64,000 nucleotides of DNA from assembly GCF_904426505.1 (NCBI RefSeq), contig NZ_CAJGBN010000012.1:434001-498000 (forward strand). The letters are read 5' to 3'. Position 1 is the first letter of the stretch. Each line of letters opens with the position of its first letter. Of this stretch, positions 5,404 to 56,295 are shown piece after piece. The DNA comes from Rubrivivax sp. A210 (lineage in GTDB: Bacteria; Pseudomonadota; Gammaproteobacteria; Burkholderiales; Burkholderiaceae_C). The notes under the pieces were generated by a model, which worked only from the letters and a program-made list of their open reading frames with translations, did no database searches and had not been told where the DNA came from. The position numbers and the translations under genes were made by a program.

Positions 5404-5789
5404 CGTATCCGCGTGCAACTCGGTGCTCAAGTCGGCGGCGCCGGCGCCGAAACCCCCTTCAGAGACAGGCCAGAACCCGACACGCCCCGCCCGGGCGCCG
5501 CAACGGCACACGCCGGCGGCCAACCCGTGACAGCGGCCCGGCGCGCAACGCGCCGGCGCCGAGGGTGTGCTTGCGTGTGCGGCCTCGCGCCTGCGGCCAC
5601 CGCGGCCGCACCGAGCCGGGCCGCGGCTGGCCTTTCCGGCCGAAATGCTCGACCAACACCCGCCAGATCGCTTGCAGCCTCAAGTTCGGCCTGGGCCGCA
5701 CCGATAGACCGTGGACATGCCCCGGTAAGCGGTCCGCCTGCACGTGCAGGGCGGCGCTTTTTACCCGAGCCTTCCAGAAGGACAGCACC
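5404..5789 (+). promoter_or_regulatory. Leader region upstream of the giant repeat gene
   Basis: About 385 bases between the importer terminator and the ATG of the giant gene. The reading frame of the giant gene is open from 5565, but the encoded stretch is Arg/Cys-rich and unlike the repeat protein, so I treat it as noncoding. It holds a perfect 8-bp hairpin with a CAA loop, CCGGCGCG (5538-5545) and CGCGCCGG (5549-5556), of unknown role. The ribosome binding site AGAAGGA is at 5776-5782, 7 bases before the ATG at 5790. A promoter for the giant gene must lie here if it is not transcribed from further upstream, but I could not identify convincing -35 and -10 boxes. Confidence 0.45.
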
Positions 5790-8700
5790 ATGGCCTCCCT
5801 GATCCTCAACTTCACCTCGTCGCAGATCGCAGTCATGAGCACGGCGCAGATCGCCGCGCTGACCACCGAGGACTGGGCTGCATTCAGCACGGACAAGATT
5901 GCCGCGCTGACCGCGCAGCAGATCCCGGCAATCTCGCTCACGGGGCTGGGGTCGTTGAACACCACCCAGTTGGCGGCCTTCGAGACGGCGGACGTGACGA
6001 GGTTCACGACCACCCAGGTCCAGGCCTTCACCACGGTGCAGGTACGGGCCCTGACCAGCGAGCAGGTCGGCGCCCTGCAGACCCACCAGGTGCGCACCTT
6101 CAACACGACCCAGGTGGCGGCCATCGAAACCGCCGACCTCGCCCAGATGGGCACGTCGGCGGTCGGCGCCCTCACGTCGGTGCAGGTGGCGGCCCTGAGC
6201 ACGGCCCAGATCAGCGCCCTGGAGTCGAACCAGATCGCCGCCCTGTCGACGGCGGCCGTGCGCAACATGAGCACGGCGCAGATCGACGCCCTGTCCGGCA
6301 CCGACATCGATGCACTGGGTTCGTCCCAGATCGCCGCCCTGACCACCTTGCAGTTGCGGGCCCTGGGCACGGCCGAGATCCAGGCCATAGGCAGTGCCGA
6401 GATGGCCGTGCTGGGCACCACCGGGGTAGCAGCCCTGACGACGGCCCAGTTCGCGGCGCTCACGACCGACCAGTTCCGATCCCTCACGACCCAGCAGATC
6501 GCCGGCCTGAGCACGGCCCAGGTGGCGGCGCTCACTTCGGCCCGTGTGGATGTGATGGACTCCGCTGACCTGGCCAGCCTGTCCACCACCCAGATCCGCG
6601 CGCTGGGCACGGCGGCCATCGCCGGGCTCGACAGCGCCAACATCCAGGGCCTGAGCGCGACCCAGTTGGCCGCGCTGTCGACCCAGCAACTGGCCGCCAT
6701 CGAATCGGCCGACTTCGCCGCCCTGACGACGGCACAGTTCGCGACCCTGGGCACGGCCCAGCTGTCGCGCCTGAGTTCCGACCAGGCACGGGCACTGGAG
6801 ACGGCCGACCTGGCCGCTCTGGGCACCGCACAGATCCGTTCACTCAGCACCTCCGCCATCGACATGCTGGGCAGCGCCCAGCTCGAGGCACTGGGCACCG
6901 CCCAGGTGGCGGCCATGACAACCAGCCAGCTGGGACACCTGGCGAGCATCACCGACGAGCAACTGGCAGCCCTGAGCACCGCCCAGGTGGCATCGCTCGG
7001 CCTGGCCTACGGCGCCACGCTGACCTCGGCCGACCTGGCCGCCCTGACCAGCACCCAGCTCCGCCTGCTGAGCACGGGCGCCATCGCCGGCCTCGACAGC
7101 GGCGACATCCTCTCCCTGGGCACCGAGCAGCTGGCCGCGCTGACCACCAGCCAGCTGGGCGCCATCTCCACCGCCGCCCTGGCCGGCCTTGAAAGCGCCG
7201 ACCTGGCCGGGCTGGGCACCTCGCGCATCACCAGCCTCACGAGCACGCAGATCGGCGCCTTGAGCAGCGCCCAGCTCAATGAACTGGACACGCGCCAGAT
7301 CCGCTCGCTCACGGCCACCCAGCTCGACGGCCTGAGTTCCGGTGATCTGGCCTCGCTGAGCAGCGAGCGCCTCGCCGTGCTGACCACGACGCAGATTGCC
7401 AGCCTGAACGCCAGCCAGGTGCCCGGCCTGGATGTGCTGACCACGGCCCAGCTCAACGCCGTGAGCGTGACAGCCGTCTCCGCCCTGGACAGCACCAGCC
7501 TGCCGGTGGCCGACATCGCCAAGCTGACCTCGCCCCAGATGGCCGGCCTGACCTCCGCCCAGCTCTCGGGCATCAGCACCACCACGCTGGCCAGCCTGAG
7601 CACGTCCCAGCTCGCCAACCTGACCACGGCAGCCATCGCGTCGCTGGACAGCACCAGCATCGGCGCGCTGAGTTCCGGCCAGGTCCGCGCCCTCACCGCC
7701 GGGCAGATCAGCGCCCTGGCCGACGACATCGCCGCCTTCAGCACCACCGACGTGGCGGGCATGACGGCCAGCCAGGTCGCGGCCCTGTCCACGGCCCAGG
7801 TCGATGCACTTGTCCAGGGCAGCCTGCTCGCCTCCATCGCCACCTCGGCGATCACCAGCCTGACCTCGGCCCAGCTGGTCAGCCTGGGGACGGCCGGCTT
7901 CAACGACCTCTCCACCGCCCAGATCGCGGCCTTGACGGTGACGCAGATCACCAAGCTGACGACCGACCAGATCGACCAGATGGCGTCCGATGACTTCGGC
8001 GCCCTGACCTCGCGCCACATCGCGGCCATCTCGACCGAGTCCATCCGCAACCTGGGCTCGGCCGACTTCCAGGCCATGAGCACGTCGCAGATCCAAGGCC
8101 TCACCGCCGCCCAGCTGCAGCAGATTGCCACCGACGAATTCCTCGCCTTCGAGACCGCCGACCTCGCCGCCCTGACGACCGCGCAGATCCGCGCGCTGAG
8201 CACGGCGATGGTGGACGCCCTGTCGACCGATTCCAGCCAGGTCGCCGCCCTCACGGGCACGCAGATCGCGGCCATGACCACCTCGCAGCTGCAGGCGTTG
8301 AACTTCGGCACCGACGACATCGGCAGCATCTCCGGCAACCAGATCTCCGGGCTGAGCACCACCGTCATCGCCGGCATGTCCACCGCCGACGCCGCCGGGC
8401 TGACATCGGCCCAGGTCGCCGGCCTGAGCACGACGCAGATCCGCGCCCTGGCGATCGACGATCTCCAGGTTCTGGCCACAGACCGCATCGCCGCCCTGAG
8501 CTCCGCGCAGATCGCGGCACTGACGACCCTGCAGCTCGCGGCCCTGGACAGCACCGACCTTGCCGCCATCGCGTCCACGGCCATCCGCGGGCTCACCTCG
8601 GTGCAGATCGCCAGCCTGGGATCCGACCGTCTCAACATGCTGAGCACGGCCCAGTTCGACGGCCTCACCTCCGGGCAGATCGCCAAGCTCACCACGGGCC

Positions 8701-11700
8701 AGGTTGCCGGCCTCGAGACGGCCGACCTCGTGGCCATCGGCAGCGCCGAATTCCAGGCCCTGAGCACGGCCGGCGTGACCGCGCTGAGCGTCGAGGGCGC
8801 CGCCGCCCTCACCAGCGACCAGTTGCGCGCCCTGGGCACGACCCAGTTGCGCGCCCTGGGCGTCGATGACATCGCCGCCCTGTCGACCGGCACACTGAGC
8901 CAGCTCGCTTCGAGCCGCATCGCCGCGCTCACCACCTCGCAGATCGACGCTCTCACCACCAGCCAGCTCACGGCCTTGAGCACCGACCACATCCGCGCGC
9001 TCACCAGCGCGCAGGTGGCCAGCCTGAGCCCGGCCGACCTGGCCATCCTCGGCACGGCGGCCTTCGCGGCGCTGAGCACCAGCCAGGTGCGCGGCATCAC
9101 GGCCGAACAGATGGCCGCCATGGAAACCGCTGACCTGGTGCAGATCGGCAGCGCCCAGTTCGGCGCCCTGAGCACGCAGGCCATCGTGGCCATGGATGTG
9201 GCCCAGGTCGAGGTTCTCACCTCCGGCCAGGTCAGGGCCATGAGCACCAGCCAGCTTCGCGCCATGGAGGTGGACGACCTGGCCGCCCTGAGCAGCGGCA
9301 ACATCGCCGTGCTCGGCACCACCCAGCTGCGGGCGCTGACCACCGCCCAGATCGAGGCGCTGACGGCGACCCAGCTCGACGGCGTGACGAGCGCCCAGCT
9401 CAATGCGCTGACCAGCCAGCAGATCGCCAGCCTCGAGCCCGCCGATCTGGCCTCGCTGACCTCGACCCAGCTCGACGGACTCTCGGCAGCCCAGATCGCC
9501 GCACTGACCAGCGCCCAGGTGGCCAACCTTGGCGCCACCGCCGTGGCCTCGCTGTCCAGCACGCAGTTGGCCGCCTTGACCACGACCCACCTGAGCACGC
9601 TCGACGGCGTCCAGGTGGGCGCACTCGCCTCCGACCAGATCAGGGGCCTGACTGCGGCGCAGATTCGCGCCATTGACGCCGAAGACATGTCTGCCCTGGC
9701 CACCGCGACCGTGGCCGGCCTGAGCACGGTACAGATCGCCGCCCTCACCACCGGCCAGCTTGCGGCACTGACCGAAGAGCAGTTCTCCAAGCTCGGCGCC
9801 AGCCAGCTGGCCGCGCTGTCCACCACCCAGCTGGCGAGCGTCGATCCGGCCCTGCTGGCCGGCATGGCCACCTCGCAGCTGGCCGGGCTGAGCACGAGCC
9901 AGATCGCGCTGCTGAGCACCGACCAGGTCGCGCAACTCGATGCCGCCGACCTGGCCGCCCTCACGACGACGCAGATCGTGGCGCTGCGCACAGCGCAGAT
10001 CGAGGCGCTGCAGGCCGACGCCCTGCAGGGGTTGACCACCTCCCAGGCCGCCGTGCTGTCGTCGGCCCAGGTGATGGCGATCGAATCCGCCGACTTGTCG
10101 TCCCTGGAAACGGCCGACCTGGCCGCGCTGCAGACGGTGGCCGTGGCCGCCCTGAGCGAGGCGCAGATCGACGCCCTGAGCGCCGAACAGCTGGCCGCGC
10201 TCACCACCTCACAGGTCCGCGCCCTCACGACGGCCCAGCTCGCGCGGCTCGACGGCGATGACATCACCGCGATGGGCACGGCCCAGTTCGCGGCCCTGAA
10301 CACCCGCCAGATCCTTGCGCTGAACACCACGCAGGCCGCCGCCCTGAGCTCGGGCGACCTGGCAGCCATCGGCAGCACGCAGTTTGCCGCCTTGGGCACC
10401 GCCAACGTGGCGGCGCTGGCCGTCGATGCCATCGCAGGCCTGACGACGAGCCAGATGGCCGCCATGAGCACGGCCCAGGCCGCCGCACTGGAAGTCGCGG
10501 CACTGAACGTGATGGCGACTGCCGACCTGGCGGCGATAGGCACGGCGCAGATCCGCGCGTTCTCGGCAGACCAGCTCAATGCGCTGGATGCGGCACAGCT
10601 GGCCGGGCTGACCACGCGCCAGGTGGCCGCGCTGACCACGACGCAGATCGAGTCGATGCTGCCGGCCTCGTTGGCCGCGCTGGGCACGGGCCACTTCGCC
10701 GCCATGGGCACGGCCCAGGTGGCGGCCTTCACGACCGACCAGGCCGCGGCGCTGGAAACCGCCGATCTGGCCCGGCTGTCGACGGCCCAGATCCAGGCCC
10801 TTTCGAACCAAGACCTCACCGCCCTGGATGGCAGCCAGGTCGCGGCACTGACGACCGCGCAGGTGGCCGCGCTGAACACCGCGCAGGTGGCCGCCATCGA
10901 CCCGTCTGACCTGGCGCAAATGGGCACGTCCGCCCTTGCGGCCTTCAGCACCGCGGCCATCCGCAGCCTGAGCACCGCCCAGCTCGAGACCCTGGACGGC
11001 ACCCAGCTGCAGAAGTTCGGCACCTCGCAGATCGCGGCGCTGAGCACCGAGCAGATCGCCAGCCTGGAGGCCAGCGACCTGGCCGCCCTCTCGACCGCGC
11101 AGTTCTTCGCCATGAGCACCTCGCAGCTCGCGGCCATCACTTCCACGCAGGCCGGCTCGCTGGAGACCGCCGACGTGGCGGCCCTGAGCACGCAGCAGGT
11201 GCGCGCGCTGGACCAGAACGCGGTGGCGGCGCTGTCCTTGGCCACCTTCCAGGCCCTCAGCACGGCCCAGGTGGCCGCACTGCGCACCGAGCAGGTCTCG
11301 AGGCTGACGGCCGAGCAACTGGCCGGCATGGAAACCGCCGATGTGGCAGCGCTCACCAGCGCCCAGGTCGCCGCGCTGTCCACGGCGCAGTTCGAAGCCT
11401 TCTCGACGCCGCAGCTCGACGCCCTCAACGCCAACCAGATCACGGGTTGGAGCACGACGCAGATTGCCGGCCTCACGCCGGCCGGCCTGGCCGCCCTGTC
11501 CACCGACAAGTTCGCCGCCCTGACCACCGAGCAGCTCGGCGCCATCACGGCCGAGCAGGCCGCGGCCCTGCCGGGTGACCGCATCGGGGTGCTGACGACG
11601 ACGCAGATCCGGGCCCTGGACGCCGATGCCTTCGGCGCGCTGTCCACCGCCGCCATCGTGGCCCTGGGCACGAGCCAGGCCGTCGCCCTGACCTCGGCCC

Positions 11701-14700
11701 AGCTGCACAGCCTGAGCGCCGAACTGATGGGCGCGATGGAAACGCGCGACCTGGCCGCCCTCAGCACGACCCAGATCACGCTGCTGACGACTGCCCAGCT
11801 CGATGCGCTGAACACCGAACAGCTGTCGAACCTGACCACGCGCCAGGTGGAGGCCCTGACCACCGTCCAGCTCGCTGCGCTCGAAGCAACCGACCTGGCG
11901 GCCATGAGCTCCGCGCAGTTCGGCGCCATGACCACGCATCAGCTGGCGGCCATCACCACCGACCAGGCCACCCAGCTTGAAGGCGCCGATCTCTCGGCCC
12001 TCACGCCCACCGATATCCGCGCCCTTCGCGCCGCGGCGATCGGGGCGCTGTCCACCTCGGCCATCGCCGGCCTCGGCACGACGCAGGCCGCGTCGCTCAC
12101 GTCGGCCCAGCTGGCCACGCTCAACGCCGACCAGATGGCGGCCTTCGAGACCGCCGACCTGATGAAGATCGCGACGGCCCAGCTGGCCTCGCTGAGCACG
12201 GCGCAGATCGACGCGCTGAGCTCGCTGCAGCTGTCCAGCCTGACCACCAGCCAGGTGGCGGCCCTTACCACGACACAGTTTGCCGCCATCGAAGCCAGCG
12301 ACCTGGCGGCCATGGGCGGCACGCAGTACCGCGGCATGACGACGACGCAGCTGGCCGCGCTCACCTCCGACCAGGCCGGTGGCCTGGAGACCGCCGACAT
12401 GGCCGCGCTCTCGACCCTGCAGATACGCGCCCTGGACAACGACGCCCTGGGCGCACTGTCCTCGCAGGTGATCGTGGCACTGACCACGGCCCAGGTGGCA
12501 GGCCTGACCACGACCCAGATCGGCGGCCTGACGGCCGAGCAGATGCTGGCGCTGGAGACGCGCGACCTCGCGGCCATGGGCACGGCACAGATCGCGTCGC
12601 TGTCGACGCTGCAGCTCGACGCGCTCGACACCAGCCAGCTCAACAGCCTGGGCACACGCCAGCTCGCCGCGCTGACCAGCACCCAGATCGAATCGCTGGC
12701 ACCGGATGACCTCCGGTCGCTGGGCACTGCGCACTTCGCGGCGTTGAAGACCGCGCAGGTGGCGGCCATCACCGCCGAACAGGCAGCCGCCATGGACACG
12801 GCCGACATCGCCGTGCTGAACACGCTGCAGATCCGTGCCCTCGCCACCGATGCGCTGGCCGCGCTGTCCGACGCCAGCATCCTGGCCCTGGGCACCCTCC
12901 AGATGGCCGCGTTGACCACCAGCCAGCTCACCAGCCTGACGGCCGCACAGATCGCCGTCATCGCCACTGACGACCTGCGTGCCCTGAGCACGACCCAGGT
13001 CCAGGCCCTGACCACGAGCCAGATCGATGGACTCATCACCGAGCAGCTGACTTCGCTGACGACGCGCCAGTTCGGTGCCCTCACCACCGAACAGCTGGCG
13101 GTGCTCGATGCCGCCGACCAGGCCGCGCTCGGCCCGACGCAGTTCGGCGCCATGAACACGGCCCAGATCGCCGCCCTGAGCGCGGCCCAGGCCGCCATGC
13201 TGGTCACGGCCGACATCGCCGCGCTGAGCACGGTGCAGGTCCGCGCCTTGTCCACCGAGGCGCTGGCCGAACTTTCCAGCGCCGCCGTGCAGGCCCTCAG
13301 CACCGCGCAGGTGGCGGCGCTCACCACCGAGCAGGTGTCCAACCTCTCGGCCAGCGCGCTCGGCTCCCTCGAGACCCGTGACCTGGCCGCCATGAGCACG
13401 GCACAACTCGCGGCGCTGAGCACGGCCCAGCTCGACAACCTCGGCACAGCCCAACTGGCCGGCCTCACGACGCGGCAGATCGCCTCGCTGTCCGCCGACC
13501 AGATCGCCGGCCTCGAAGCCAGTGACCTGGCGGCCCTGGGGAGCGCGCAGTTCGCGGCCATGACCACCAACCAACTTGCCGCTTTCACGCTCGAGCAGTC
13601 CGCAGCGCTGGAGGGCGCCGACCTGGCCGCCCTGGGCCCGGTGAAGATCCGCGCCCTGCGCCCCGACACCATCGCCGAGCTGTCCACCGCAGCCTTGGCC
13701 GCGCTGACCACCCAGCAGGCCGCCGCCCTGACCACCGATCAGGTGGCCGCCCTCAGCGCGGCCAACCTGGTGGCGCTCGAAACGGCTGACCTCAGGGCCT
13801 TCAGCTCGAGCCAGATCAACGCCCTGGGCGACGCCGGCCTGGCCGCGCTGACCAGCACGCAGCTTGGCGCGCTGACCACCACCCAGGTGGCCAATCTCGA
13901 CGAAGGCCTGTTGGCCGGCATGGCGCCAGCCACGCTCAACGCGCTGACTCCGACTCAGTTTGCCGCCTTGCGCACGGCCCAGATCCGCGCCCTCACCGAC
14001 GAGCAGATCGCCGGCCTCGAAAGCGCCGACCTGCGGGCCCTGACCTCGTCCCAGGTCGCCGCCCTGGGCGACTCGCAGATCGTCGCGCTCGACGGCACCC
14101 AGATGGCCAGCCTGACCTCCAACCAGGTGCGCGCGCTCACCACCAACCAGATCGCGGTGATGGACGTGGCCGACTTCACGGCGATGGACACGAGCCAGTT
14201 CGCGGCCATGACCACGCTGCAGGTGGCCAACCTCTCGGCAGAGAAGATCGCCGCGCTCGAGACGGCCGACCTCGCCGGCTTGAGCATCACCCAGATCCGC
14301 GCCATCTCCACCGATGTCATCGGCAACCTCACGGCCGCGTCGGTGCAGGCCCTCACGGGCAACCAGGCGCAGGCGCTGACCACGTCGCAGCTCGCGGCCA
14401 TCGCCCCCGCGGCGCTGGCCTCGCTGGACACGGCCGACCTCGCACTGCTCAGCACGGCCCAGATCCGGGCCCTGACCGGCGAACAGCTCGCCGGCCTGAC
14501 CACGGCGCAGTTCGCCGCGCTGTCCGCACCGCAGGCCGCCGCCATCTCCACCGCCGAGATCAGCAACCTGTCGGTCGCCAACCTCAACGCCCTGGGCAGC
14601 GGCCAGTTTGCCGCGCTGAGCACGGCGCAGATCGCCGTGCTCACGGGCGAGCAGATCGCCGGCATGGAGACGGCCGACATCGCCGCCCTCACCACGCGGC

Positions 14701-17700
14701 AGCTGCGCACGCTCAATGAAGAGCAGCTCATTGCCCTCACCACGGCAGAAGCCGCCGCCCTGGGCACGAGCCAGATTCCCGGCCTGAACACGCAGCAGGT
14801 GGCCTGGCTCGAAGCCGCGGACCTGGCCGCCCTTGGCACGGCACAGTTCTCCAAGCTGACCGCCAGCCAGGTGGGCGCCATTACCGAAAGCCAGGCAACG
14901 CTGCTCGAGACGGCCGACGTGCGCGCCCTGGGCACGACCCTGATCACCGCGCTCAACACGGCGGCCATCGTGGCGCTCACGACCGAAGTCGTGGCCTCGC
15001 TGGCCACTGTGCAGGTCGCGGCGCTCACGACGCGGCAGTTCGTTGCGCTGGAAGCCAATGATCTGGCGGCCATGACCACCGACCAGTTCATGGCCCTGAC
15101 CACGCAACAGCTGTCCCGGCTGACGGCGGAGCAGGCTGCGGCCTTCCAGACCGACGACCTGAGGGTGTTGACCCAGCCGCAGATTGCCGCGCTCAGCACC
15201 GAAGCCATCGTGGCGCTGAGCACGGCCTCGATGTCGCAGCTGACGACCAGCGAGGTCCAGTGGCTGACCACCAGCCAGGTGCAGGCCATCGCGGCCGAAG
15301 ACCTGGCGGCCATGACCAGCGCCCAGTTCGAGGCGTTCCTGAACCCGCAGCTCGCGGCGATGACGGCCTACCAGGCCGGCGCGCTGCAGAGCGACGACCT
15401 CGCGCTGCTGAGCAGCAGCCAGCTGGCCTCGATCAGCACCGCGGCCTTCGCGGCGCTGAGCACCGACGTCATCAATGCGCTGGATTCAAGCCAGATCGCC
15501 TCGCTGGGCACGGCCCAGGTCCGCTCCCTGAGTGTCGCCACGGTGGCGGCCATGACCACCGACGACCTCAATTCGCTGACCACGGCACATGTGGCGGCGA
15601 TGACCACCAGCCAGGTGCGCGCACTGACCAGCGACCAGCTGACGGCCCTGGACAGCCAGCACCTGGCCACGCTGACCACGGCGCAGATTGCCGCGATCGC
15701 GGACGTCGACCTGGCAGCCCTGTCGTCGGCGCAGTTCGGCACGCTGACGCCGACGCAGATCGGCTCCCTGAGCGCGGCGCAGATCATCGCGATGGCCACC
15801 GACGACATCGCCGGGCTGACCACGTTGCAGATGCCGACCCTGTCCACCGCGGCCATCGTGGCGCTGGACAGCGCCAAGCTCGCGGCCCTGTCGTCCGACC
15901 AGCTGCGCTCACTGGTCACGACCCAGTTGCGCGCCCTCGAGACGGCTGACCTGGTGAGCCTGGGCACCGAGGCCATCGGCGCCTTCCTGCCCGGCCAGTT
16001 CGCGGTCTTCACCACGGCCCAGATCGCCGCATTGACCACCGACCAGCTGTCGACCCTGCCTGGCGCCAGCCTGGCCGCCATGACCGCGGCGCAACTCCGG
16101 GCCATCGATCCGGCCAACCTCGCGAGCCTGACCACCGGCGAGTTCGCCGCGCTGACGCCTGCCCAGATGGGCAGCCTGACGACGGCGCAGATGGCCGCCA
16201 TGGCCACCGACGACCTGGCTTCGCTGAGCGGCACCTTGCTGCGCGGCATCAGCACGGCCGGCATCGCGGCGCTCAGCGCCGCCCAGCTGGAAACGATGCA
16301 GCTCGGCGAGCTGACCACCAAGCAGATCCGCGCCATTGAAACCGCCGACCTGGCCGGCCTGAGCACCACCGCCATCAACGCGCTGCAACTGAACCAGCTG
16401 CCCGGCCTGAGCGCCGACCAGATGGCGGCGCTGAGTTCGACACAGCTGATGTCAATGACCGACCCGCAGCTCGGCGCACTGGGCACGACCCAGCTCAACG
16501 CCCTCGACTCGGCGCACCTGAACAGCCTGTCCAGCACGCAGTTCCAGATTCTTTCCACGACGCAGGTCGCCGGCCTGAGCACGACCCTGGTCGCTGCGCT
16601 GGAGACGGTTGACCTGGCCGCGCTGCGCACCGACCAGATCCGCGCGCTCGGCACCGCGGCCATCCAGGCCCTGGATGCCGCCCGGCTGCAGGCCCTGACC
16701 ACCGACCAGGTCATGGCGCTGAAGACCAGCCAGATCGTCGCCATCGACTCGGCCGACCTGGCCACGATGGAGACTGCCGACTTCGCGGCCCTGGGCACGG
16801 CGCAGATCCGCGCCATGACCAGCGACCAGGTGTCGGCACTGAGCGCGGCCCAGCTCACGGTGCTGAGCACCGCACAGGTCGCGGCCATCGGCACCGCACA
16901 GATCGGCGCCATCGCCACCGACGACCTCAATGCCCTGTCCAGCGCGCAGTTCGCGGCCCTCACCACCTACCAGGTGTCGCGCCTGACGACCGCGCAAGTG
17001 CAGGCCCTCGAGACGGCCGACGTCGTCGCCCTCTCGACCAACCAGATCCGCGCCCTGGGCACGGCCGGCGTGAATGTGCTGTCGAGCAGCGCGATCGACG
17101 CCATGACCAGCAGCCAGTTCATCGCGCTGACCACGGCGCAGGTCCAGGCGCTGAGCACGTCCACCATCGGTGCGCTGCAGACGGCCGACCTGGTGACCAT
17201 GAGCACCACCCAGATCAACACCCTGGCATCGCCGCAGCTGGCCGCCCTCACCGACTCGCAGCTGGCCAGCCTGACCACAAGGCAGGTGGCGGCGATCAAC
17301 GTCGGCGCCGTGGCCCAGCTCTCGTCGACCGACCTCAACGTGCTGGGCACGAGCCAGTTCGCGGCCCTGAGCACGGCCCAGATCGCGGTGCTGAACACGA
17401 CCCAGATGGGCGCCCTGGAAACGGCGGACATCGCCGCCCTGGGCACGACCCAGATCCGGGCGCTGACCACCGCCAGCATCGCCGCGCTCGGCACCGCAGG
17501 CATCGAGGCGCTGACCACGGCTCAGGTCGTGGCCCTGGCCACGGCGCAGGTCCGCGCCATCGAGACGGCGGACATCGCGGCCATGCAGACGGCCGACCTG
17601 GCCGCGCTGTCGACCCTGCAACTGGCCGCGCTGAGCACGGCACAGATCGACGCCCTGAGCACCGACCAGCTCTCGCACCTCAGCACCACGCAACTGGCCT

Positions 17701-19130
17701 CGCTGAGCACTGAACAGTTCGGCGCCCTCACGGGAGCCGATCTCTCTGCACTGACCAGCGCTCAGTTCCTGGCCCTGACACCCGTGCAGATGGCCAGCCT
17801 GGGCACGGCGCAGATCGCCACCCTGGAAACGCCGGAAGTGGCGCTGATGAGCACGGCACAGGTCCAGGCGCTGAGCGAGGCCAGCATCGCCGCGCTGAGC
17901 AGCAGCCAGCTGGTGGCCTTCACCACTGGCCAGGTCATGGCGCTGAGCGCCCTGCAGGTGCAGGCCATCGAGACGGCCGACCTCGTCAACATGGAGTCGG
18001 CGGACCTGCGCGCCTTCACGACGGCGCAGATCGCGGCCTTCACGTCCGAGCAGATCGACGCCCTCACCGACCCGCAGCTGGGGCAGCTGACCACCTTGCA
18101 GCTGTCGGCGTTGACGACGACGCAGCTGGCCACGTTCGACACCCAGGAGCTGGCGGCGCTGAGCACCGACCAGTTTGCCGCGCTGACCACCCTGCAGCTG
18201 CAGTCCCTGGACGAAGTGCAGATTGCCGGCCTGGGCACGGCCGACATCGCGGCCCTGACCACCGCGCAGGCCCACGCCCTGACGACGACGCAGATCGATG
18301 CGCTCACGACCACGCAGGTCGAGGCCTTCGAGACCGCCGACCTGGCGGCCATGACCGACGCACACTACAACGCCTTTGCCGGCGAAGACTGGGCCCACTT
18401 CAGCAACGAGCAGTTCCAGGCGCTGCAGAGCGTGACCCCGATCGTGCTCGACCTCAACGGCGACGGCGTGAAGACGCTGGCAGCCGCCCAGGGCGTGCAG
18501 TTCGACCTGACCGCTTCGGGCCAGGCCAGCCAGGTGGGCTGGGTCAGCGCGCAGGACGCCCTGCTCGTGCGAGACATCAACCAGGACGGCGTGATCAACG
18601 ACGGGCGCGAGCTCTTCGGTGGCGCCACCGAACTCGCCGATGGGCAGCGCGCAGGCGATGGCTTCCGGGCGATGGCTGCACTGGACAGCAGCGGCGACGG
18701 CAAGCTTTCGGCGGCCGATGCCAAGTTCGGTGAACTCAAGCTCTGGATCGATGCCGACAGCGACGGCAAGACCGATGTGGGCGAGCTCAAGGGCCTGGTC
18801 GACTTCGGCATCGCCGAGATCAACCTCGACTTCGCCAAGAGCACCGAGACCGACAACGGCAACTTGCTGGGACTCGTGGGCAGCTACACCGCTGCGGACG
18901 GAAGCCAGCACGCCATGGCCGACGTCTGGCTCGCCAAGCAGGCGGCTGCGCCGGCCCTCACCGCCGATGAGTTGCTGGCCGCACCCGCGCCGGCCCTGCT
19001 GGGCTCGCCGGCCGAGGGCGCGACCGCACAAGTCGCCACGGCAACGGCGGCGCCGATGCAGGTGCAATGCAGCCTGGGCGTCAGTGCCGCCGACGACGAA
19101 CTGCTGCGGCTCCAGCAGCCGCTGATCTAA
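5790..19130 (+). CDS. Giant octapeptide-repeat protein with C-terminal EF-hand calcium-binding tail
   Basis: This gene encodes about 4446 residues. After MASLILNF, residues 9 to about 4213 are nearly uninterrupted octapeptides with consensus [ST]-T-x-Q-[IVL]-x-[AS]-L, about 525 copies with a few slips (for example near 6937). Every few units the TxQI core becomes ETADL. From residue 4216 (TPIVLDLNGDG) a compact domain follows with EF-hand-type loops at 4262-4274, 4299-4310 and 4321-4332 (DxNxDG, DxSGDG, DADSDG), ending with an Ala/Pro-rich tail. This tail type is common at the C-terminus of large type I-secreted proteins. I see no Sec signal peptide and no RTX GGxGxD nonapeptides. The only cysteine I noticed is in the tail. 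Function is unknown; an exported surface or matrix protein is inferred from the tail and the adjacent TolC and glycosyltransferase genes. The start is set by the ribosome binding site. Confidence 0.88.
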   Translation: MASLILNFTSSQIAVMSTAQIAALTTEDWAAFSTDKIAALTAQQIPAISLTGLGSLNTTQLAAFETADVTRFTTTQVQAFTTVQVRALTSEQVGALQTHQVRTFNTTQVAAIETADLAQMGTSAVGALTSVQVAALSTAQISALESNQIAALSTAAVRNMSTAQIDALSGTDIDALGSSQIAALTTLQLRALGTAEIQAIGSAEMAVLGTTGVAALTTAQFAALTTDQFRSLTTQQIAGLSTAQVAALTSARVDVMDSADLASLSTTQIRALGTAAIAGLDSANIQGLSATQLAALSTQQLAAIESADFAALTTAQFATLGTAQLSRLSSDQARALETADLAALGTAQIRSLSTSAIDMLGSAQLEALGTAQVAAMTTSQLGHLASITDEQLAALSTAQVASLGLAYGATLTSADLAALTSTQLRLLSTGAIAGLDSGDILSLGTEQLAALTTSQLGAISTAALAGLESADLAGLGTSRITSLTSTQIGALSSAQLNELDTRQIRSLTATQLDGLSSGDLASLSSERLAVLTTTQIASLNASQVPGLDVLTTAQLNAVSVTAVSALDSTSLPVADIAKLTSPQMAGLTSAQLSGISTTTLASLSTSQLANLTTAAIASLDSTSIGALSSGQVRALTAGQISALADDIAAFSTTDVAGMTASQVAALSTAQVDALVQGSLLASIATSAITSLTSAQLVSLGTAGFNDLSTAQIAALTVTQITKLTTDQIDQMASDDFGALTSRHIAAISTESIRNLGSADFQAMSTSQIQGLTAAQLQQIATDEFLAFETADLAALTTAQIRALSTAMVDALSTDSSQVAALTGTQIAAMTTSQLQALNFGTDDIGSISGNQISGLSTTVIAGMSTADAAGLTSAQVAGLSTTQIRALAIDDLQVLATDRIAALSSAQIAALTTLQLAALDSTDLAAIASTAIRGLTSVQIASLGSDRLNMLSTAQFDGLTSGQIAKLTTGQVAGLETADLVAIGSAEFQALSTAGVTALSVEGAAALTSDQLRALGTTQLRALGVDDIAALSTGTLSQLASSRIAALTTSQIDALTTSQLTALSTDHIRALTSAQVASLSPADLAILGTAAFAALSTSQVRGITAEQMAAMETADLVQIGSAQFGALSTQAIVAMDVAQVEVLTSGQVRAMSTSQLRAMEVDDLAALSSGNIAVLGTTQLRALTTAQIEALTATQLDGVTSAQLNALTSQQIASLEPADLASLTSTQLDGLSAAQIAALTSAQVANLGATAVASLSSTQLAALTTTHLSTLDGVQVGALASDQIRGLTAAQIRAIDAEDMSALATATVAGLSTVQIAALTTGQLAALTEEQFSKLGASQLAALSTTQLASVDPALLAGMATSQLAGLSTSQIALLSTDQVAQLDAADLAALTTTQIVALRTAQIEALQADALQGLTTSQAAVLSSAQVMAIESADLSSLETADLAALQTVAVAALSEAQIDALSAEQLAALTTSQVRALTTAQLARLDGDDITAMGTAQFAALNTRQILALNTTQAAALSSGDLAAIGSTQFAALGTANVAALAVDAIAGLTTSQMAAMSTAQAAALEVAALNVMATADLAAIGTAQIRAFSADQLNALDAAQLAGLTTRQVAALTTTQIESMLPASLAALGTGHFAAMGTAQVAAFTTDQAAALETADLARLSTAQIQALSNQDLTALDGSQVAALTTAQVAALNTAQVAAIDPSDLAQMGTSALAAFSTAAIRSLSTAQLETLDGTQLQKFGTSQIAALSTEQIASLEASDLAALSTAQFFAMSTSQLAAITSTQAGSLETADVAALSTQQVRALDQNAVAALSLATFQALSTAQVAALRTEQVSRLTAEQLAGMETADVAALTSAQVAALSTAQFEAFSTPQLDALNANQITGWSTTQIAGLTPAGLAALSTDKFAALTTEQLGAITAEQAAALPGDRIGVLTTTQIRALDADAFGALSTAAIVALGTSQAVALTSAQLHSLSAELMGAMETRDLAALSTTQITLLTTAQLDALNTEQLSNLTTRQVEALTTVQLAALEATDLAAMSSAQFGAMTTHQLAAITTDQATQLEGADLSALTPTDIRALRAAAIGALSTSAIAGLGTTQAASLTSAQLATLNADQMAAFETADLMKIATAQLASLSTAQIDALSSLQLSSLTTSQVAALTTTQFAAIEASDLAAMGGTQYRGMTTTQLAALTSDQAGGLETADMAALSTLQIRALDNDALGALSSQVIVALTTAQVAGLTTTQIGGLTAEQMLALETRDLAAMGTAQIASLSTLQLDALDTSQLNSLGTRQLAALTSTQIESLAPDDLRSLGTAHFAALKTAQVAAITAEQAAAMDTADIAVLNTLQIRALATDALAALSDASILALGTLQMAALTTSQLTSLTAAQIAVIATDDLRALSTTQVQALTTSQIDGLITEQLTSLTTRQFGALTTEQLAVLDAADQAALGPTQFGAMNTAQIAALSAAQAAMLVTADIAALSTVQVRALSTEALAELSSAAVQALSTAQVAALTTEQVSNLSASALGSLETRDLAAMSTAQLAALSTAQLDNLGTAQLAGLTTRQIASLSADQIAGLEASDLAALGSAQFAAMTTNQLAAFTLEQSAALEGADLAALGPVKIRALRPDTIAELSTAALAALTTQQAAALTTDQVAALSAANLVALETADLRAFSSSQINALGDAGLAALTSTQLGALTTTQVANLDEGLLAGMAPATLNALTPTQFAALRTAQIRALTDEQIAGLESADLRALTSSQVAALGDSQIVALDGTQMASLTSNQVRALTTNQIAVMDVADFTAMDTSQFAAMTTLQVANLSAEKIAALETADLAGLSITQIRAISTDVIGNLTAASVQALTGNQAQALTTSQLAAIAPAALASLDTADLALLSTAQIRALTGEQLAGLTTAQFAALSAPQAAAISTAEISNLSVANLNALGSGQFAALSTAQIAVLTGEQIAGMETADIAALTTRQLRTLNEEQLIALTTAEAAALGTSQIPGLNTQQVAWLEAADLAALGTAQFSKLTASQVGAITESQATLLETADVRALGTTLITALNTAAIVALTTEVVASLATVQVAALTTRQFVALEANDLAAMTTDQFMALTTQQLSRLTAEQAAAFQTDDLRVLTQPQIAALSTEAIVALSTASMSQLTTSEVQWLTTSQVQAIAAEDLAAMTSAQFEAFLNPQLAAMTAYQAGALQSDDLALLSSSQLASISTAAFAALSTDVINALDSSQIASLGTAQVRSLSVATVAAMTTDDLNSLTTAHVAAMTTSQVRALTSDQLTALDSQHLATLTTAQIAAIADVDLAALSSAQFGTLTPTQIGSLSAAQIIAMATDDIAGLTTLQMPTLSTAAIVALDSAKLAALSSDQLRSLVTTQLRALETADLVSLGTEAIGAFLPGQFAVFTTAQIAALTTDQLSTLPGASLAAMTAAQLRAIDPANLASLTTGEFAALTPAQMGSLTTAQMAAMATDDLASLSGTLLRGISTAGIAALSAAQLETMQLGELTTKQIRAIETADLAGLSTTAINALQLNQLPGLSADQMAALSSTQLMSMTDPQLGALGTTQLNALDSAHLNSLSSTQFQILSTTQVAGLSTTLVAALETVDLAALRTDQIRALGTAAIQALDAARLQALTTDQVMALKTSQIVAIDSADLATMETADFAALGTAQIRAMTSDQVSALSAAQLTVLSTAQVAAIGTAQIGAIATDDLNALSSAQFAALTTYQVSRLTTAQVQALETADVVALSTNQIRALGTAGVNVLSSSAIDAMTSSQFIALTTAQVQALSTSTIGALQTADLVTMSTTQINTLASPQLAALTDSQLASLTTRQVAAINVGAVAQLSSTDLNVLGTSQFAALSTAQIAVLNTTQMGALETADIAALGTTQIRALTTASIAALGTAGIEALTTAQVVALATAQVRAIETADIAAMQTADLAALSTLQLAALSTAQIDALSTDQLSHLSTTQLASLSTEQFGALTGADLSALTSAQFLALTPVQMASLGTAQIATLETPEVALMSTAQVQALSEASIAALSSSQLVAFTTGQVMALSALQVQAIETADLVNMESADLRAFTTAQIAAFTSEQIDALTDPQLGQLTTLQLSALTTTQLATFDTQELAALSTDQFAALTTLQLQSLDEVQIAGLGTADIAALTTAQAHALTTTQIDALTTTQVEAFETADLAAMTDAHYNAFAGEDWAHFSNEQFQALQSVTPIVLDLNGDGVKTLAAAQGVQFDLTASGQASQVGWVSAQDALLVRDINQDGVINDGRELFGGATELADGQRAGDGFRAMAALDSSGDGKLSAADAKFGELKLWIDADSDGKTDVGELKGLVDFGIAEINLDFAKSTETDNGNLLGLVGSYTAADGSQHAMADVWLAKQAAAPALTADELLAAPAPALLGSPAEGATAQVATATAAPMQVQCSLGVSAADDELLRLQQPLI
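5814..18428 (+). repeat. 12.6-kb tandem array with 24-bp (octapeptide) period
   Basis: The DNA encoding the octads repeats with a 24-base period and therefore always keeps frame. Copies are diverged at the DNA level, with the strongest conservation at the codons for Thr, Gln, Ile/Val and Leu (ACSnnnCAGRTC-like core). Because 24 is a multiple of three and the codons are GC-rich, several very long open frames appear on the opposite strand; these are by-products. Such an array is prone to recombination and to collapse or expansion in short-read assemblies, so the true copy number may differ from that shown. Confidence 0.93.
10251..13922 (+). repeat. Higher-order repeat: nine 408-bp units of 17 octads
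   Basis: Within the octad array, acidic D-L units recur in a fixed order at octads 1, 5 and 12 of a 17-octad (136-residue, 408-bp) super-unit. Super-units start at 10251, 10659, 11067, 11475, 11883, 12291, 12699, 13107 and 13515, and a tenth begins at 13923. Octad 1 is of the type EASDLAAM, octad 5 ETADLAAL (followed by xTxQIRAL), octad 12 ETRDLAAM. In some copies octad 1 is diverged (for example LPASLAAL at 10659), and the octad-12 slot of the second unit is shifted by one. After 13923 the same marker octads continue at mixed spacings of 10 or 17 octads. The pattern implies block duplication of 408 bp on top of the 24-bp period. Confidence 0.85.
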
Positions 19131-19307: not shown

Positions 19308-19967
19308 ATGATCGAGACGTATGCAGGCCAATCGCCGATTCCAAAAGCATGCTTTTAGTTCGACAAAACACCCGTCCCTCATTTCATTGCCAACCACAAT
19401 GTAAACTATCCACCATTTCGGATGACTGATCGATCCATTGAAATGGCCGTGGCCGACGAATTTCTGAAACAATATCAGAGAGACGATGTCATGGAAATTG
19501 GCGCAACAACGCCATATTATTGGCCACATCGAATACCAAATATCGTCGACCCCACAGACAAGCACCCTCTCGTGAACATTAGAAGAGGTTTCATGGATGT
19601 CGAGATTGCCAATACGCCCGCCATCCTGTCGATCTCGACATTCGAGCACATAGGTCTTTCCGATTATGGCCTGCCTGAGGATCCGGCAGCCGTATCGGCC
19701 GCGCTGGCCAAGCTGCTGGCCGAAGGCCACGATTTTCTCGTGACCATACCAGGCGGCTACAATCCGACCCTGGACAGGCTGATACCAAAGGCCCGCGCGG
19801 GCAACGGCTTTGAAGTGTATTACTGGGAACGCCCAGTGATTGGCAACGAGTGGGTTTGGACCGACCCAGCAAGCATCGATATCGAAAAACTGAAATATGG
19901 CCCATTCTGGGCCAACCAGTTATTCATATTGCACCGCGGCCAGCCGCTTTTTGCCGGCACAAAGTAG
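19308..19967 (+). pseudogene. Methyltransferase-like protein interrupted by an in-frame amber codon
   Basis: An ATG at 19308 follows a strong ribosome binding site (GGAGGA, 19298-19303). It opens MIETYAGQSPIPKACF and meets TAG at 19356-19358. The same frame then stays open from 19359 to the stop at 19965-19967. The residues after TAG but before the first later Met (19422), FDKTPVPHFIANHNVNYPPF, read as ordinary protein and join smoothly to MTDRSIEMAVADEF. The body (VMEIG, then ILSISTFEHIGLSDYG) resembles the SAM-methyltransferase-like proteins found in surface-polysaccharide loci. The simplest reading is one gene of 219 codons broken by a nonsense mutation; a non-ATG restart or a shorter product from 19422 is also possible. 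Base composition is much less GC-rich than the surroundings. Confidence 0.6.
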
Positions 19968-20081
19968 AGGCCCTGCTCGACACCCCCGGGAACGCCTTTC
20001 GCCGGGTGTACTACGGCCTTCAACGCTGACGCCGCAGCACCGGGCGGCGCCGGCGGGCTTCAGCCAGGAAGCCGGGTGGTT

Positions 20082-20930
20082 TTAGGCACGGCCCAGCACG
20101 GACTTCCAGATGTCCAGGTGCTTTTCAGTGTACTTGGCCCAGGTCCAATCCTTGACCGGGTTGTATTCAAGACGCCTGAATATATTGTCCAGGTCTTCCT
20201 GGGTGCGGAATGGATAGTCGACCGGCAAGTCCTTCTGCCAATCCTGCACGCTTGAGATGGTTCGAATGCCGGCCTGTGAAGCGTCGAGGATGCTCTGGGC
20301 CATGCAATCCTCATCGCCGGTATACAGCACAAAATCCGCCCGCTCCAGGATCACCTTGTAGGTATCCATGTCGAAATCCGGCCGGTACTTGATGTCGAAA
20401 CCCTCGCGGGCCAGTGGAGCCAGGACATACTCCCAGCCCTTGCCCATGACCAGAAAGGTGAAGCTCGATTTGTCTATCACCTTGCAGACCTCGGCCAGCA
20501 TCCACTCCCGCTTGCGCTTGTCAGGGTACACGTTGGAGAGAATTGCGACGTTCTTCGGCCGCCTGGGAATGCTGTCATGGGCCGGCAGAACATAATCCAG
20601 CTTGCCGACTCCGAAACCATTCAGGTAAGACATCATCGTCGGCGAGAAGCAGATCCCGACATCGGCCGTAGCCATAATCTCCCGAATTCTCTCAATCTTG
20701 GAATCCGTGCCCTGGGTAAAATGGGTGATCATCACCGTATTGATGGTGTCCACATACTGGTATGGCCCGTAGTTGATGTGGTGGTTCACCGTCGCATCCG
20801 GGTCCGGCAGCGCCTTCACCGTGCATTCGACGCCGAGCTTGTCCAGCTCGGTCTTCATCGCCTGCGCATACTTTGACAGAATGCCAACGATGGCCAGCCC
20901 TTCCTCGTAATTGACCAGATTGACTCTCAT
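20082..20930 (-). CDS. Glycosyltransferase-like protein (GT-B type)
   Basis: A 282-residue protein with an N-terminal segment MRVNLVNYEEGLAIVGILSK and a C-terminal nucleotide-sugar-binding-like half containing FLVMGKGWEYVL and ADFVLYTGDEDCMAQSILDASQAG. The last resembles the acidic ExxxxxxxE-type donor-binding region of GT4 glycosyltransferases, though the classical EGFG motif is not present. It is the third gene of a minus-strand operon after a DegT aminotransferase and a methyltransferase; its start overlaps the methyltransferase stop by 4 bases. A role in transferring a modified sugar is inferred from these neighbours. It is moderately GC-poor for this genome. Confidence 0.65.
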   Translation of the reverse strand: MRVNLVNYEEGLAIVGILSKYAQAMKTELDKLGVECTVKALPDPDATVNHHINYGPYQYVDTINTVMITHFTQGTDSKIERIREIMATADVGICFSPTMMSYLNGFGVGKLDYVLPAHDSIPRRPKNVAILSNVYPDKRKREWMLAEVCKVIDKSSFTFLVMGKGWEYVLAPLAREGFDIKYRPDFDMDTYKVILERADFVLYTGDEDCMAQSILDASQAGIRTISSVQDWQKDLPVDYPFRTQEDLDNIFRRLEYNPVKDWTWAKYTEKHLDIWKSVLGRA

Positions 20931-21604
20931 GCTGATTTCCTTGCAATGTTGCGGCCACCGCCGACATCAATAACCACAATCAAGTTTGCGAGCAAGGGCG
21001 TCTTGTCGCCGCCCAAGCGCCAGAATATTGAATCTAGCGTGGCACAAAGCCAGCGCGGAATGCCGATCTTGGCATAGGCGAGCAGCGGCCTGACCCGGCT
21101 GGCATCCTCGATGTGGGCCTTGAAGGCACCGGTCTGCGCCAGCAGCCCGGCAATGATTTGGCGCGTGTAATAGTGTCGATGCGTGGGATCGACATAGGGC
21201 CGGTAGGTGACCCTCGAATCCGGCAATGACAGATCGTCTTCCTTCGGAATGGAGAGTATGACATTGCGCGAGGCAATCCTGATCATCTCCTGCAGAGCGC
21301 CAACATCGTCTTCGATGTGCTCGAGGACATTCCAGGCGATGACGCTCTCGAACTGCTTGTCGGAAAACTGCCTCAATTCGGTGCCGCAGTGAAACTCGCA
21401 GTCTGGATGGGCTTTCCGCGCCGCCTCCACATGCGCCGATTCAGAGTCGATTCCAACCGCCGGGATGCCCGTGCGGTTGAGAAACGCGACGAGATTACCC
21501 GTGTTGCAGCCGATATCAAGCGCCGAGCCCTGGCAGAACCGAAGAATGTGATTGCACTTCCACGCGTCCAGGGCGCCATCGTACTTGAATGGCTCAGCAG
21601 ACAT
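20927..21604 (-). CDS. Class I SAM-dependent methyltransferase
   Basis: A 225-residue methyltransferase. Motif I is LDIGCNTGNLVAFL (residues about 31-44), followed by an acidic residue at the end of strand 2 (VGIDSES) and the motif IAWNVLEHIEDDVGAL, typical of Methyltransf_11/23 enzymes. It probably methylates a sugar or glycan intermediate, because it lies between a DegT aminotransferase gene (11-base overlap) and a glycosyltransferase gene (4-base overlap). The overlaps argue for one translated unit. The acceptor cannot be told from sequence. Confidence 0.8.
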   Translation of the reverse strand: MSAEPFKYDGALDAWKCNHILRFCQGSALDIGCNTGNLVAFLNRTGIPAVGIDSESAHVEAARKAHPDCEFHCGTELRQFSDKQFESVIAWNVLEHIEDDVGALQEMIRIASRNVILSIPKEDDLSLPDSRVTYRPYVDPTHRHYYTRQIIAGLLAQTGAFKAHIEDASRVRPLLAYAKIGIPRWLCATLDSIFWRLGGDKTPLLANLIVVIDVGGGRNIARKSA

Positions 21605-22700
21605 CGGCCGTCTCCATCTGCACGACCTTGCATACCCTTTCCACGAATGAATTCGGTATGGTGTAGTAAGTCGGCAAGGTAATGCCGCGATAGGCCACGC
21701 CGATGGAGCAGGCGCAACGATGCCTGACGTACTGCTTGTAGATATCCATCTGATGCAGCGGATAGAACATCGGGCGCGTCTCGATGTTGTTTCTGGCGAG
21801 CCTGGCCATTACCTCATCCCTGTGGCGGGCGAGGCAGGTATAGAGCCAGACCACCGGCTTGATATTGCTGGGCGCGCACCTGATCTCGATGCCGTCCACG
21901 CCGGTCAGCTGTTCGTCATACCAGATACCCACGTTCCGCCGGCGCCGCAGTATGTCGTCGATTTCTTCCAGCTGGGCCAGCCCGAGCGCCGCCTGCGGAT
22001 TGGTCATGCGGTAGTTGTAGCCAACCACATCGTATTTGTACTTGTTATTCTTGTTCATGCCGTGATCCCGCATCACCAGCATTTTTTCGTAAACCTCGTC
22101 ATCGTCGGTGGTACACATGCCACCTTCGCCGGTGGTGATGATCTTGTTACCATAAAAGCTGAATGCCCCGATGTCTCCGAGGCTGCCGACTTTTTTTCCC
22201 TGGTACTCGGCGCCATGCGCTTCGGCCGCATCCTCGATAATTTTCAGTCCGTACTCCACGCCGATGGCGGCTATCTCACTCATATTACACGGATAGCCGT
22301 ACAGGTGGACAGGGATGATCGCCCTGGTTTTTGAGGTGATGGCTTCCCGAATCCTGGCCGGAGATATGTTCCAGGTGTCGGGGTCAATATCGACGATGAC
22401 CGGCGTGGCCCTGGCATGCAGCACCGCATTGATGGTCGCGGCGAACGTCAAGTCCGGCACGATGACTTCATCGCCCTCGCCGATATTCAGGCTCAGCAGT
22501 GCGAGATGCAGCGCCACCGTGCCGTTGGTGACGGCCACGGCGTGCTTGGTGCCCACAAAGCGGGCAAAGGCGCGCTCGAAGTCGGGGATGAAGTGGCCCC
22601 TGGAACTTATCCAGCAACTGTCGAAGCACTCGTCGACATACAGCCGGGCCTTCTTGCCCAGGTAGGGCTCTATGAGTGGAATCGTCTGTTCGATCATCAT
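21594..22700 (-). CDS. DegT/DnrJ/EryC1/StrS-family sugar aminotransferase
   Basis: A 368-residue PLP-dependent aminotransferase that converts a nucleotide-linked keto-sugar into an amino sugar. Visible family features are VTNGTVALHLAL (PLP phosphate region), VIVPDLTFAATINAV, IEDAAEAHGAEYQGKKVG and the PLP-lysine segment SFYGNKIITTGEGGM. It is most like perosamine-synthetase-type enzymes, but the exact sugar is not decidable. It is the first gene of the minus-strand operon and its start faces a 347-base intergenic region shared with the plus-strand operon. Such genes mark O-antigen, capsule or protein-glycosylation loci. Confidence 0.88.
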   Translation of the reverse strand: MMIEQTIPLIEPYLGKKARLYVDECFDSCWISSRGHFIPDFERAFARFVGTKHAVAVTNGTVALHLALLSLNIGEGDEVIVPDLTFAATINAVLHARATPVIVDIDPDTWNISPARIREAITSKTRAIIPVHLYGYPCNMSEIAAIGVEYGLKIIEDAAEAHGAEYQGKKVGSLGDIGAFSFYGNKIITTGEGGMCTTDDDEVYEKMLVMRDHGMNKNNKYKYDVVGYNYRMTNPQAALGLAQLEEIDDILRRRRNVGIWYDEQLTGVDGIEIRCAPSNIKPVVWLYTCLARHRDEVMARLARNNIETRPMFYPLHQMDIYKQYVRHRCACSIGVAYRGITLPTYYTIPNSFVERVCKVVQMETADVC

Positions 22701-23047
22701 GGCATTGGCCTTTGCGCGCCCGGCTGCCCGGCGCCAGCGGCCACGCCATCCCGCAGTTCCGTTGGAGCGCAGACCAACCGCGCACGAGGATTCGCCCAGG
22801 CGCAGGGGGTTCTGACTGCCGAACTGCGCATGGCGCCGGCGGCGCCTTGCGGGAACTGGATCGGAAGAGTGGCCACGGCTCAGGCTCTTTGGCTACAGTG
22901 CCACGAGCCTATGCGAGGCGTGGCCCGCCGATGGCCTCATTAGGCGTGCTTGCCGGCCCCAATTCGGCCTGTCGCCAGCCGCCAGCGCATGCACCATGGC
23001 AAGCCAACGGACGAAGGCGCCGCGGCAACTGCAGCGCCAGCCATGCC
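22701..23047. promoter_or_regulatory. Divergent intergenic region between the two glycan operons
   Basis: About 347 bases separate the start of the minus-strand aminotransferase operon from the start of the plus-strand TylF operon, so at least two outward promoters are expected here. A GC-rich near-palindrome GGCGCCGGCGGCGCC lies near 22831-22845. I found no coding sequence I could support and no clear sigma-70 boxes. The plus-strand frame is open through this stretch but has no protein-like character. Confidence 0.4.
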
Positions 23048-32811: not shown

Positions 32812-33000
32812 GGCGGCAATCCGAACGGGCGCGGGCCGGATCGGCTCGCACCGGGAAGTCTGGGCCGCAGGCACGGCTGCGTTCGCCGGAAATCAGGCGC
32901 CTAAGCCGGGCAATTCGGGGGCCTGCGCGGCAGAGGCCGCCATCCGTCCCCGTCGTCCATCCCGAGCTTTCGTCACTGCCGGCAGTCGCTCGTCGCATCG

Positions 33001-48925: not shown

Positions 48926-49035
48926 GTTCGGGGTTCGCAGCGGCGGATTGTAGGCAGCGCTTGGAAGGGGCCTGCCGGCGCCGATAATCGCCGCCGGCCA
49001 GCGGCCCAACCCGGCGCCCGCGCAACCGCCATCCC

Positions 49036-54488: not shown

Positions 54489-55223
<735 letters not shown>

Positions 55224-55255
55224 TTGGGGACGGTCCGTTGGGTTGGAGGCGCGCG

Positions 55256-56215: not shown

Positions 56216-56295
56216 AGACAGGCCCGTGGCCGGCCCAGGCGGCGGTATTGCGCGCTAGCATGGCCGCAACCCCTTCACGCCATCGGGAGAATCCC

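Follow-up and report, generated by a model that had tools for sequence, protein, structure and literature searches.

The window, a 64,000-nucleotide stretch of contig NZ_CAJGBN010000012.1 from Rubrivivax sp. A210, contained a 13.3-kb gene for a protein of 4446 residues, which was composed mainly of eight-residue units (octads). The octads were predicted to form a solenoid of short helices, the C-terminal tail was homologous to the self-processing module (SPM) of Neisseria FrpC, and genes of the GT41 glycosyltransferase family were found close to arrays of this type. On balance, these observations favored a helical rod that would receive O-linked sugars on its Ser/Thr-rich octads and then leave the cell by type I secretion, with a calcium-folded and probably non-cleaving domain as its cap. 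No description of a system that combines an octad rod and a non-cleaving SPM cap with a GT41 enzyme bearing tetratricopeptide repeats (TPR-GT41) and with type I export was found in the literature searched, which comprised the open-licence articles of PubMed Central.

In the proposed mechanism, each octad would form one short helix, which the Ser/Thr at position 0 would start and the Gln/Asp at position 3 would cap, with positions 4 and 7 packed inside. Hundreds of octads would wind into a single superhelical solenoid, a long thin rod. The TPR-GT41 enzyme encoded nearby would glycosylate the recurring Ser/Thr residues in the cytoplasm, while the chain is still unfolded, and type I export would follow with the C-terminus first. 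On meeting calcium outside the cell, the SPM-like domain would fold and act as a cap or as a nucleus for sequential folding of the octads. The rod would stay in one piece. Glycosylated and either surface-bound or released, it may serve in adhesion, in the biofilm matrix, or as a protective coat.

Octad array and predicted fold

The array gene was one unbroken forward-strand frame from the ATG at 5790 to the stop codon at 19128–19130, and the octads extended over residues 9–4213, which confirmed what a sequence-only reading of the window had proposed. The identity autocorrelation of residues 1–4213 was 0.328 at lag 8, compared with 0.046–0.106 at lags 1–7. A cyclic eight-state Viterbi path placed 519 complete in-phase octads in the array; of its nine phase breaks, eight were interior and the other was at the very start (index 4). 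A regular expression for the octad gave 384 matches, 240 of them in one global phase, whereas 200 residue shuffles gave a mean of 46 (maximum 69) and, in one global phase, a mean of 9.4 (maximum 16). All six positional classes were fitted by 375 of the 519 octads, five by 118, and fewer by 26. The regularity claimed by that reading was borne out, but its consensus, [ST]TxQ[IVL]xAL, was too narrow. Position 0 was Thr or Ser in 59% of octads, position 1 was Thr or Ser in 74%, position 3 was Gln (60%) or Asp (17%), position 4 was Leu, Ile, Val, or Phe, and position 7 was Leu in 75%. Each octad carried 1.84 Ser/Thr residues on average.

The array had a higher-order repeat of 17 octads (136 residues), and copies 136 residues apart were most alike. 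These copies mostly resembled each other less at codon position 3, which was near background, than at the first two positions. No exact direct DNA repeat of at least 27 bp was present in the array, and 24-mers recurred twice. Because of these two features, the array appeared to be old and held by selection at the protein level, and a fresh DNA expansion or an assembly artefact was unsupported. The array was unlikely to be mis-assembled, and its assembly from short reads could be feasible. Antisense frames of >1600 codons crossed the array on the reverse strand at 7007–11935 and 10209–15107, probably as a by-product of the GC-rich codon pattern.

When residues 1896–2167 (11475–12290) were modeled by AlphaFold2 with repeat copies of this one protein as the input alignment, all 34 octads were predicted as helices of 4–6 residues, which formed a short-helix solenoid with a pLDDT of 94.9 and a pTM of 0.83. 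A leucine-rich repeat (LRR) or β-solenoid fold was rejected, as the 272-residue model contained no strand despite LRR profile and sequence matches. A period of 3.40 octads was strong in both window segments, and the top period was 3.37–3.40 octads in L030, L031, L067, and P0009, that is, in 6 of 20 runs including the window segments. The other runs peaked near 2.1, 2.4, 4.8, 5.4, and 7 octads, and 5 of the 20 were not above shuffles. For the predicted superhelical short-helix solenoid, a turn of about 3.4 octads is only a guess, since any k/17 is a harmonic of a 17-octad repeat.

The solved structure 9zem in the Protein Data Bank ("HeliScrew4") was aligned without gaps to the octads over 110 residues, with an E-value of 1.1e-27. 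This entry, which we take from its name to be a designed protein, had 120 residues, and at position 1 Pro frequently took the place of the Thr or Ser of the natural array; no paper on it was found. The earlier suggestion of a design without a known counterpart was therefore not upheld. Since 9zem shares the octads and one genome of the order sample described below (G180) contained a frame of 9542 codons, neither the design nor the size of the array protein was unique. Mesothelin and the ARM/HEAT solenoids are irregular superhelices of short helices, which the predicted array fold may resemble, and neither was among the 60 listed of 91 sequence matches. By analogy with these proteins, the solenoid could mainly be a protein- or ligand-binding surface on which sugars are incidental, which we considered improbable.

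The array protein matched the Pfam family PF20080, named "ALTTAQ repeat", at 2338.6 bits (cut-off 26.4) in 150 stretches. By this profile match, the octad repeat is an already known family and the array protein is a member of it, but the family is not a well-described one, because no paper on "ALTTAQ" was found; the Pfam listing assigns it no function. The octad strings STAQIAAL, TTAQVAAL, TAQIAALTT, and LTPEQIAAL were absent from the literature searched, and "LTTAQ" occurred only in two papers, both unrelated by title. Seven weaker Pfam families at E ≤ 1 (CAAP1, LRR_EndoS, and others) had no stretch that passed alone and were taken as composition; RTX repeats (PF00353) were not among the eight Pfam families at E ≤ 1.

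A sample of the order comprised 300 genomes, 14 of which had PF20080 (13 over the cut-off), and a sample of the phylum 398, of which 28 had it (25 over the cut-off); the own genome was included in both. All 120 PF20080 matches of the own genome were within the array gene (150 of 195 first-look candidates scored). A search of named genomes with the tail gave 39 loci, 16 of which contained octads (L028–L043). These belonged to Methylibium, Rhizobacter, Roseateles, Malikia, Duganella, Pseudoduganella, and uncultured relatives, among others, in line with the expectation of similar arrays in other Burkholderiales. A protein search restricted to 0.55–1.75 times the length of the array protein gave 16 relatives, 12 of them listed with PF20080. 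Three relatives (P0004, P0005, and P0016) combined PF20080 with RTX repeats in the same chain, and the further domains listed in other PF20080 relatives are of Ig- or cadherin-like kinds.

Several arrays differed in their arrangement. In G180 (C16:292849–319806; L103, L104), the array in the 9542-codon open frame was followed on the same strand by the only GT41 gene of the genome; beyond another open reading frame (ORF) came ABC and HlyD genes. At L029:4446–8147 and L032:5270–8971, a second ALTTAQ protein of 1233 residues, ending in TMI and not in PLI, was located directly downstream of the first. In P0001 (7283 residues), ALTTAQ arrays alternated with stretches read as β-propeller-like repeats, with an SPM-like tail at the end. 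The bulk of the phylum hits came from family f87, outside the class (G363, G401, G412, and others), in which several genomes had arrays on several contigs and frames of up to 6436 codons; a 3781-codon frame of G401 included several GT41 domains.

FrpC-like tail

The sequence-only reading had described the tail as EF-hand-type, which was correct only superficially, with EF-hand_5 matched at an E-value of 0.0017 and 18.2 bits (cut-off 25.9). The actual domain was a homologue of the FrpC SPM (PDB code 6sjw), which was matched by phmmer over residues 4–170 of the tail with an E-value of 6.4e-36. In the alignment with 6sjw, the tail loops LDLNGDG, DINQDG, DSSGDG, and DADSDG corresponded to its four loops, and some ligand positions were occupied by Asn or Ser. 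The tail loops are of the calcium type, with putative calcium binding. The Neisseria module is described as unfolded without calcium, folding with four calcium ions, and cutting the Asp-Pro bond at its own start (PMC7078468). The roles of its residues D478, of a fifth calcium site, and D579 were taken from the same account.

The array tails differed from the FrpC module at the cleavage site and in their location at the end of an octad array. A pattern found the site in 26 of 34 array proteins, where the residue before the N-terminal Pro was Thr in 21 and Ser in 5; in the window protein it was Thr. Thr also preceded Pro in P0001, P0002, and P0005, and Ala in P0003; Asp occurred in the SPM relatives L047, L048, and P0015, which lack octads. 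The pattern was undetected in eight array proteins (L071, L072, L075–L077, and L079–L081), several of which were cut by contig or stretch ends, and the SPM-like tail of L080 was detected by BLAST. No tail match was found near the end of the 9542-codon frame of G180. At the counterpart of D478, after ELFG, none of the 20 rows of alignment A3 had Asp, and all 20 had Asp at the counterpart of D579. The tail is probably a calcium-folding, non-cleaving cap, and the rod should stay uncut because its tail is without residues that FrpC uses for self-cutting.

The last 46 residues were predicted to be disordered (pLDDT <50). They ended in PLI, as did 7 of the 34 array proteins, some of which were cut by contig or stretch ends, and this C-terminus is a possible secretion signal.

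GT41 genes near the arrays

Linkage was defined as a GT41 locus within 15 kb of an array and was counted from the full GT41 loci lists of the array genomes; earlier counts (7/11 genomes with upper-bound GT41 counts; 12/17 and 12/31) were superseded by these exact loci. GT41 was linked in 13 of the 23 array-bearing genomes, compared with 0.72 expected. In the order sample, 8 of 14 array genomes were linked (G000, G058, G129, G131, G180, G187, G278, and G281; 0.26 expected), and outside the order 5 of 9 (G644, G401, G343, G625, and G332; 0.46 expected), with Poisson-binomial tails of 6e-12 and 1e-5, respectively, under random placement. The nine outside genomes were selected, without prior knowledge of their GT41 genes, out of 26 array genomes from beyond the order. 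The array gene and a GT41 gene on the same strand were separated by 59–434 bp in eight loci. Six genomes had just one GT41 locus, which adjoined the array in four of them. Co-occurrence at the genome level was rejected as weak evidence; GT41 was present in 163 of the 300 order-sample genomes and in 11 of the 14 with arrays, so that only its position was informative.

RTX proteins were used as a control in 12 GT41-bearing, PF20080-free genomes of the order sample, which were hand-picked with GT41-rich ones preferred; six of them had RTX proteins. In these six, GT41 was within 15 kb at 0 of the 28 RTX loci counted among those listed. Among genomes holding both, 13 of 18 were linked for arrays versus 0 of 6 for RTX (P 0.003), and by locus, counted among those listed, 13 of 35 versus 0 of 28 (P 1.4e-4). 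The octad-free tail relatives L044–L066 gave no GT41 hit (0/23) and were not used as a control, because they were from other taxa and of differing lengths.

The linkage suggests that the GT41 gene at 28233–31349 may act on the array. FlmG of Caulobacter crescentus, which is likened to the GT41 enzyme by description and not by sequence, is described as a cytoplasmic O-glycosyltransferase that binds flagellins through a TPR region and acts before export (PMC7591256); the presumed substrate here differs. FlmG shows that a TPR glycosyltransferase can modify an export substrate in the cytoplasm, and the array would be glycosylated in the same order, before export.

Alternatively, the rod may be exported by a type I system but unglycosylated, with the GT41 and sugar genes modifying other targets, such as surface polysaccharide, flagellin, or another secreted protein, in a shared cell-surface island. 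In the window, the array and GT41 are separated by ordinary glycan genes, some of which have a foreign GC content, the account of FlmG shows that flagellin can be the substrate of a TPR glycosyltransferase (PMC7591256), and array genomes without any GT41 exist. However, the short same-strand distances in eight loci, the recurrence of the linkage outside the order, and its absence from the 28 RTX loci counted among those listed argued against this explanation, which was judged rather unlikely.

Export, neighboring genes, and implications

The octads began at residue 9 with no N-terminal signal in the translation read by eye from ATG 5790, which leaves no room for a Sec signal if this ATG is the start. 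ABC (ATP-binding cassette) and HlyD genes were both present in the fetched array stretches of the named loci L033 (Malikia spinosa strain 83), L034, and L040 and of G058, G180, G187, G278, G644, G343, and G332, each time together with GT41. HlyD alone stood beside the array in L028, and ABC alone in G129 and G281, where it could belong to another kind of exporter. In G278, the HlyD gene adjoined the second array, on another contig. The giant adhesins of type I secretion systems, SiiE and MpAFP, are also very long repeat proteins, with type I export as proposed for the array, but they consist of calcium-binding Ig-like domains and not of short helices. SiiE is reported to have 53 such domains (PMC5466336), and MpAFP about 120 repeats of 104 residues (PMC4083281).

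A cytoplasmic scaffold that is never exported would agree with octads without a calcium-binding motif and with a window in which no HlyD gene was found. It was considered very improbable, given the type I secretion genes beside arrays, the RTX repeats in the chains of some relatives, and the FrpC module, which is described as unfolded without calcium and folding with it (PMC7078468).

Several points weighed against a glycosylated, type I-exported rod. No HlyD gene and no ABC–HlyD pair was found in the window, where ABC matches were located only at 558–2111, 48988–50757, and 54492–56486. The GT41–ABC–HlyD trio of the own genome was on another contig, with identities of 58, 54, and 52%, respectively, to the trio near the G058 array. 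Type I export is not an obvious route for a helical array that folds by itself, the alignment behind the model consisted of copies from one protein, and capping alone would also account for Ser/Thr at the helix start. The GT41 gene of the window was 9.1 kb from the array on the other strand, with glycan genes between. GT41 was elsewhere in the genome in G096, G166, and G193 of the order and in G363 and G474 outside it, although some arrays reached contig ends, and no GT41 was found in the array genomes G234, G245, G251, G664, and G487, among which all array matches were below the cut-off in G234 and short in G251. Judged by eye, arrays with GT41 were neither richer in Ser/Thr nor poorer in Pro at position 1 than those without. 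The linkage probabilities assume random placement, and the idea of a linkage came from the order sample, which, except for G180, G234, and G251, had been read beforehand, so that only G180 and the nine outside genomes were a fresh test. Ser or Thr also preceded Pro in the octad-free SPM relatives L044, L045, L051, P0011, and P0012, so the loss of the scissile Asp was not tied to arrays.

Table 1. Features of the array gene and of the genes downstream in the window.
Feature	Position	Strand	Basis
AGAAGGA, likely ribosome-binding site for ATG 5790	5776–5782	+	sequence reading; function inferred
Giant ALTTAQ-repeat gene, 4446 residues	5790–19130	+	PF20080, 150 stretches, 2338.6 bits
Octad array, residues 9–4213, 519 complete in-phase octads, 17-octad higher-order repeat	5814–18428	+	Viterbi path, autocorrelation
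FrpC-SPM-like domain, residues 4217–4383, four calcium-type loops, Thr-Pro for Asp-Pro at start	18438–18938	+	6sjw E 6.4e-36, alignment A3, model
Predicted disordered C-terminus ending PLI, candidate type I secretion signal	18990–19127	+	pLDDT <50, model residues 284–329
181-residue ORF, no Pfam match at E ≤ 0.001, in lower-GC stretch	19422–19967	+	profile scan, GC
282-residue ORF, no Pfam match	20082–20930	−	profile scan
Methyltransferase	20927–21604	−	Methyltransf_23 E 3e-12
DegT/DnrJ/EryC1 sugar aminotransferase, also near other arrays	21594–22700	−	E 1.5e-122
TylF-type methyltransferase	22676–23833	+	E 1.7e-12
TOD1/MUCI70 glycosyltransferase-like protein	23841–25217	+	E 2.2e-9
GT4-type glycosyltransferase; residues 19–326 46% identical to part of GT41 protein	25217–28189	+	profile scan, alignment
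TPR + GT41 (O-GlcNAc-transferase-like) protein glycosyltransferase, 1038 residues	28233–31349	−	PF13844 E 6.1e-85 + TPR
TolC-family outer-membrane protein, same strand as GT41 gene	31414–32874	−	OEP E 2.2e-27; TIGR01844 67.5 bits (cut-off 225.15)

The region 19422–22700 had a GC content of 56.8%, compared with about 70% in the array and beyond, and its glycan genes were thus probably imported. Clustering of the proteins encoded around the arrays covered the window and 31 fetched stretches; GT41-related proteins were present in 13 of these 32 and DegT aminotransferases in 8. Pfam confirmed GT41 in all 10 proteins scanned, which came from ten of the stretches. Farther downstream, 37504–40698 on the reverse strand encoded a protein of 1064 residues with a protein kinase domain, an AAA/NB-ARC-like domain, and TPRs.

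For the family as a whole, we tentatively propose that ALTTAQ arrays may be widespread, unrecognized bacterial glycoprotein rods, built as short-helix solenoids of hundreds to thousands of residues. As part of the same tentative proposal, such rods would have a dedicated TPR-GT41, which O-glycosylates them throughout their length, as well as a type I system of their own for export, and often a non-cleaving, calcium-folded SPM cap as a folding nucleus. If true, they would be a bacterial, helical counterpart of mucin. For a named repeat on which no study was found, there are now a predicted fold, a proposed export route and cap, and an enzyme partner that can be tested. The octad is a very short helical solenoid unit, and natural arrays of hundreds of octads can be compared with designed ones. 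If the arrays are glycosylated, they would represent a natural class of GT41 substrates in which each chain presents hundreds of nearly equivalent sites, and would offer a handle on site choice by TPR glycosyltransferases.
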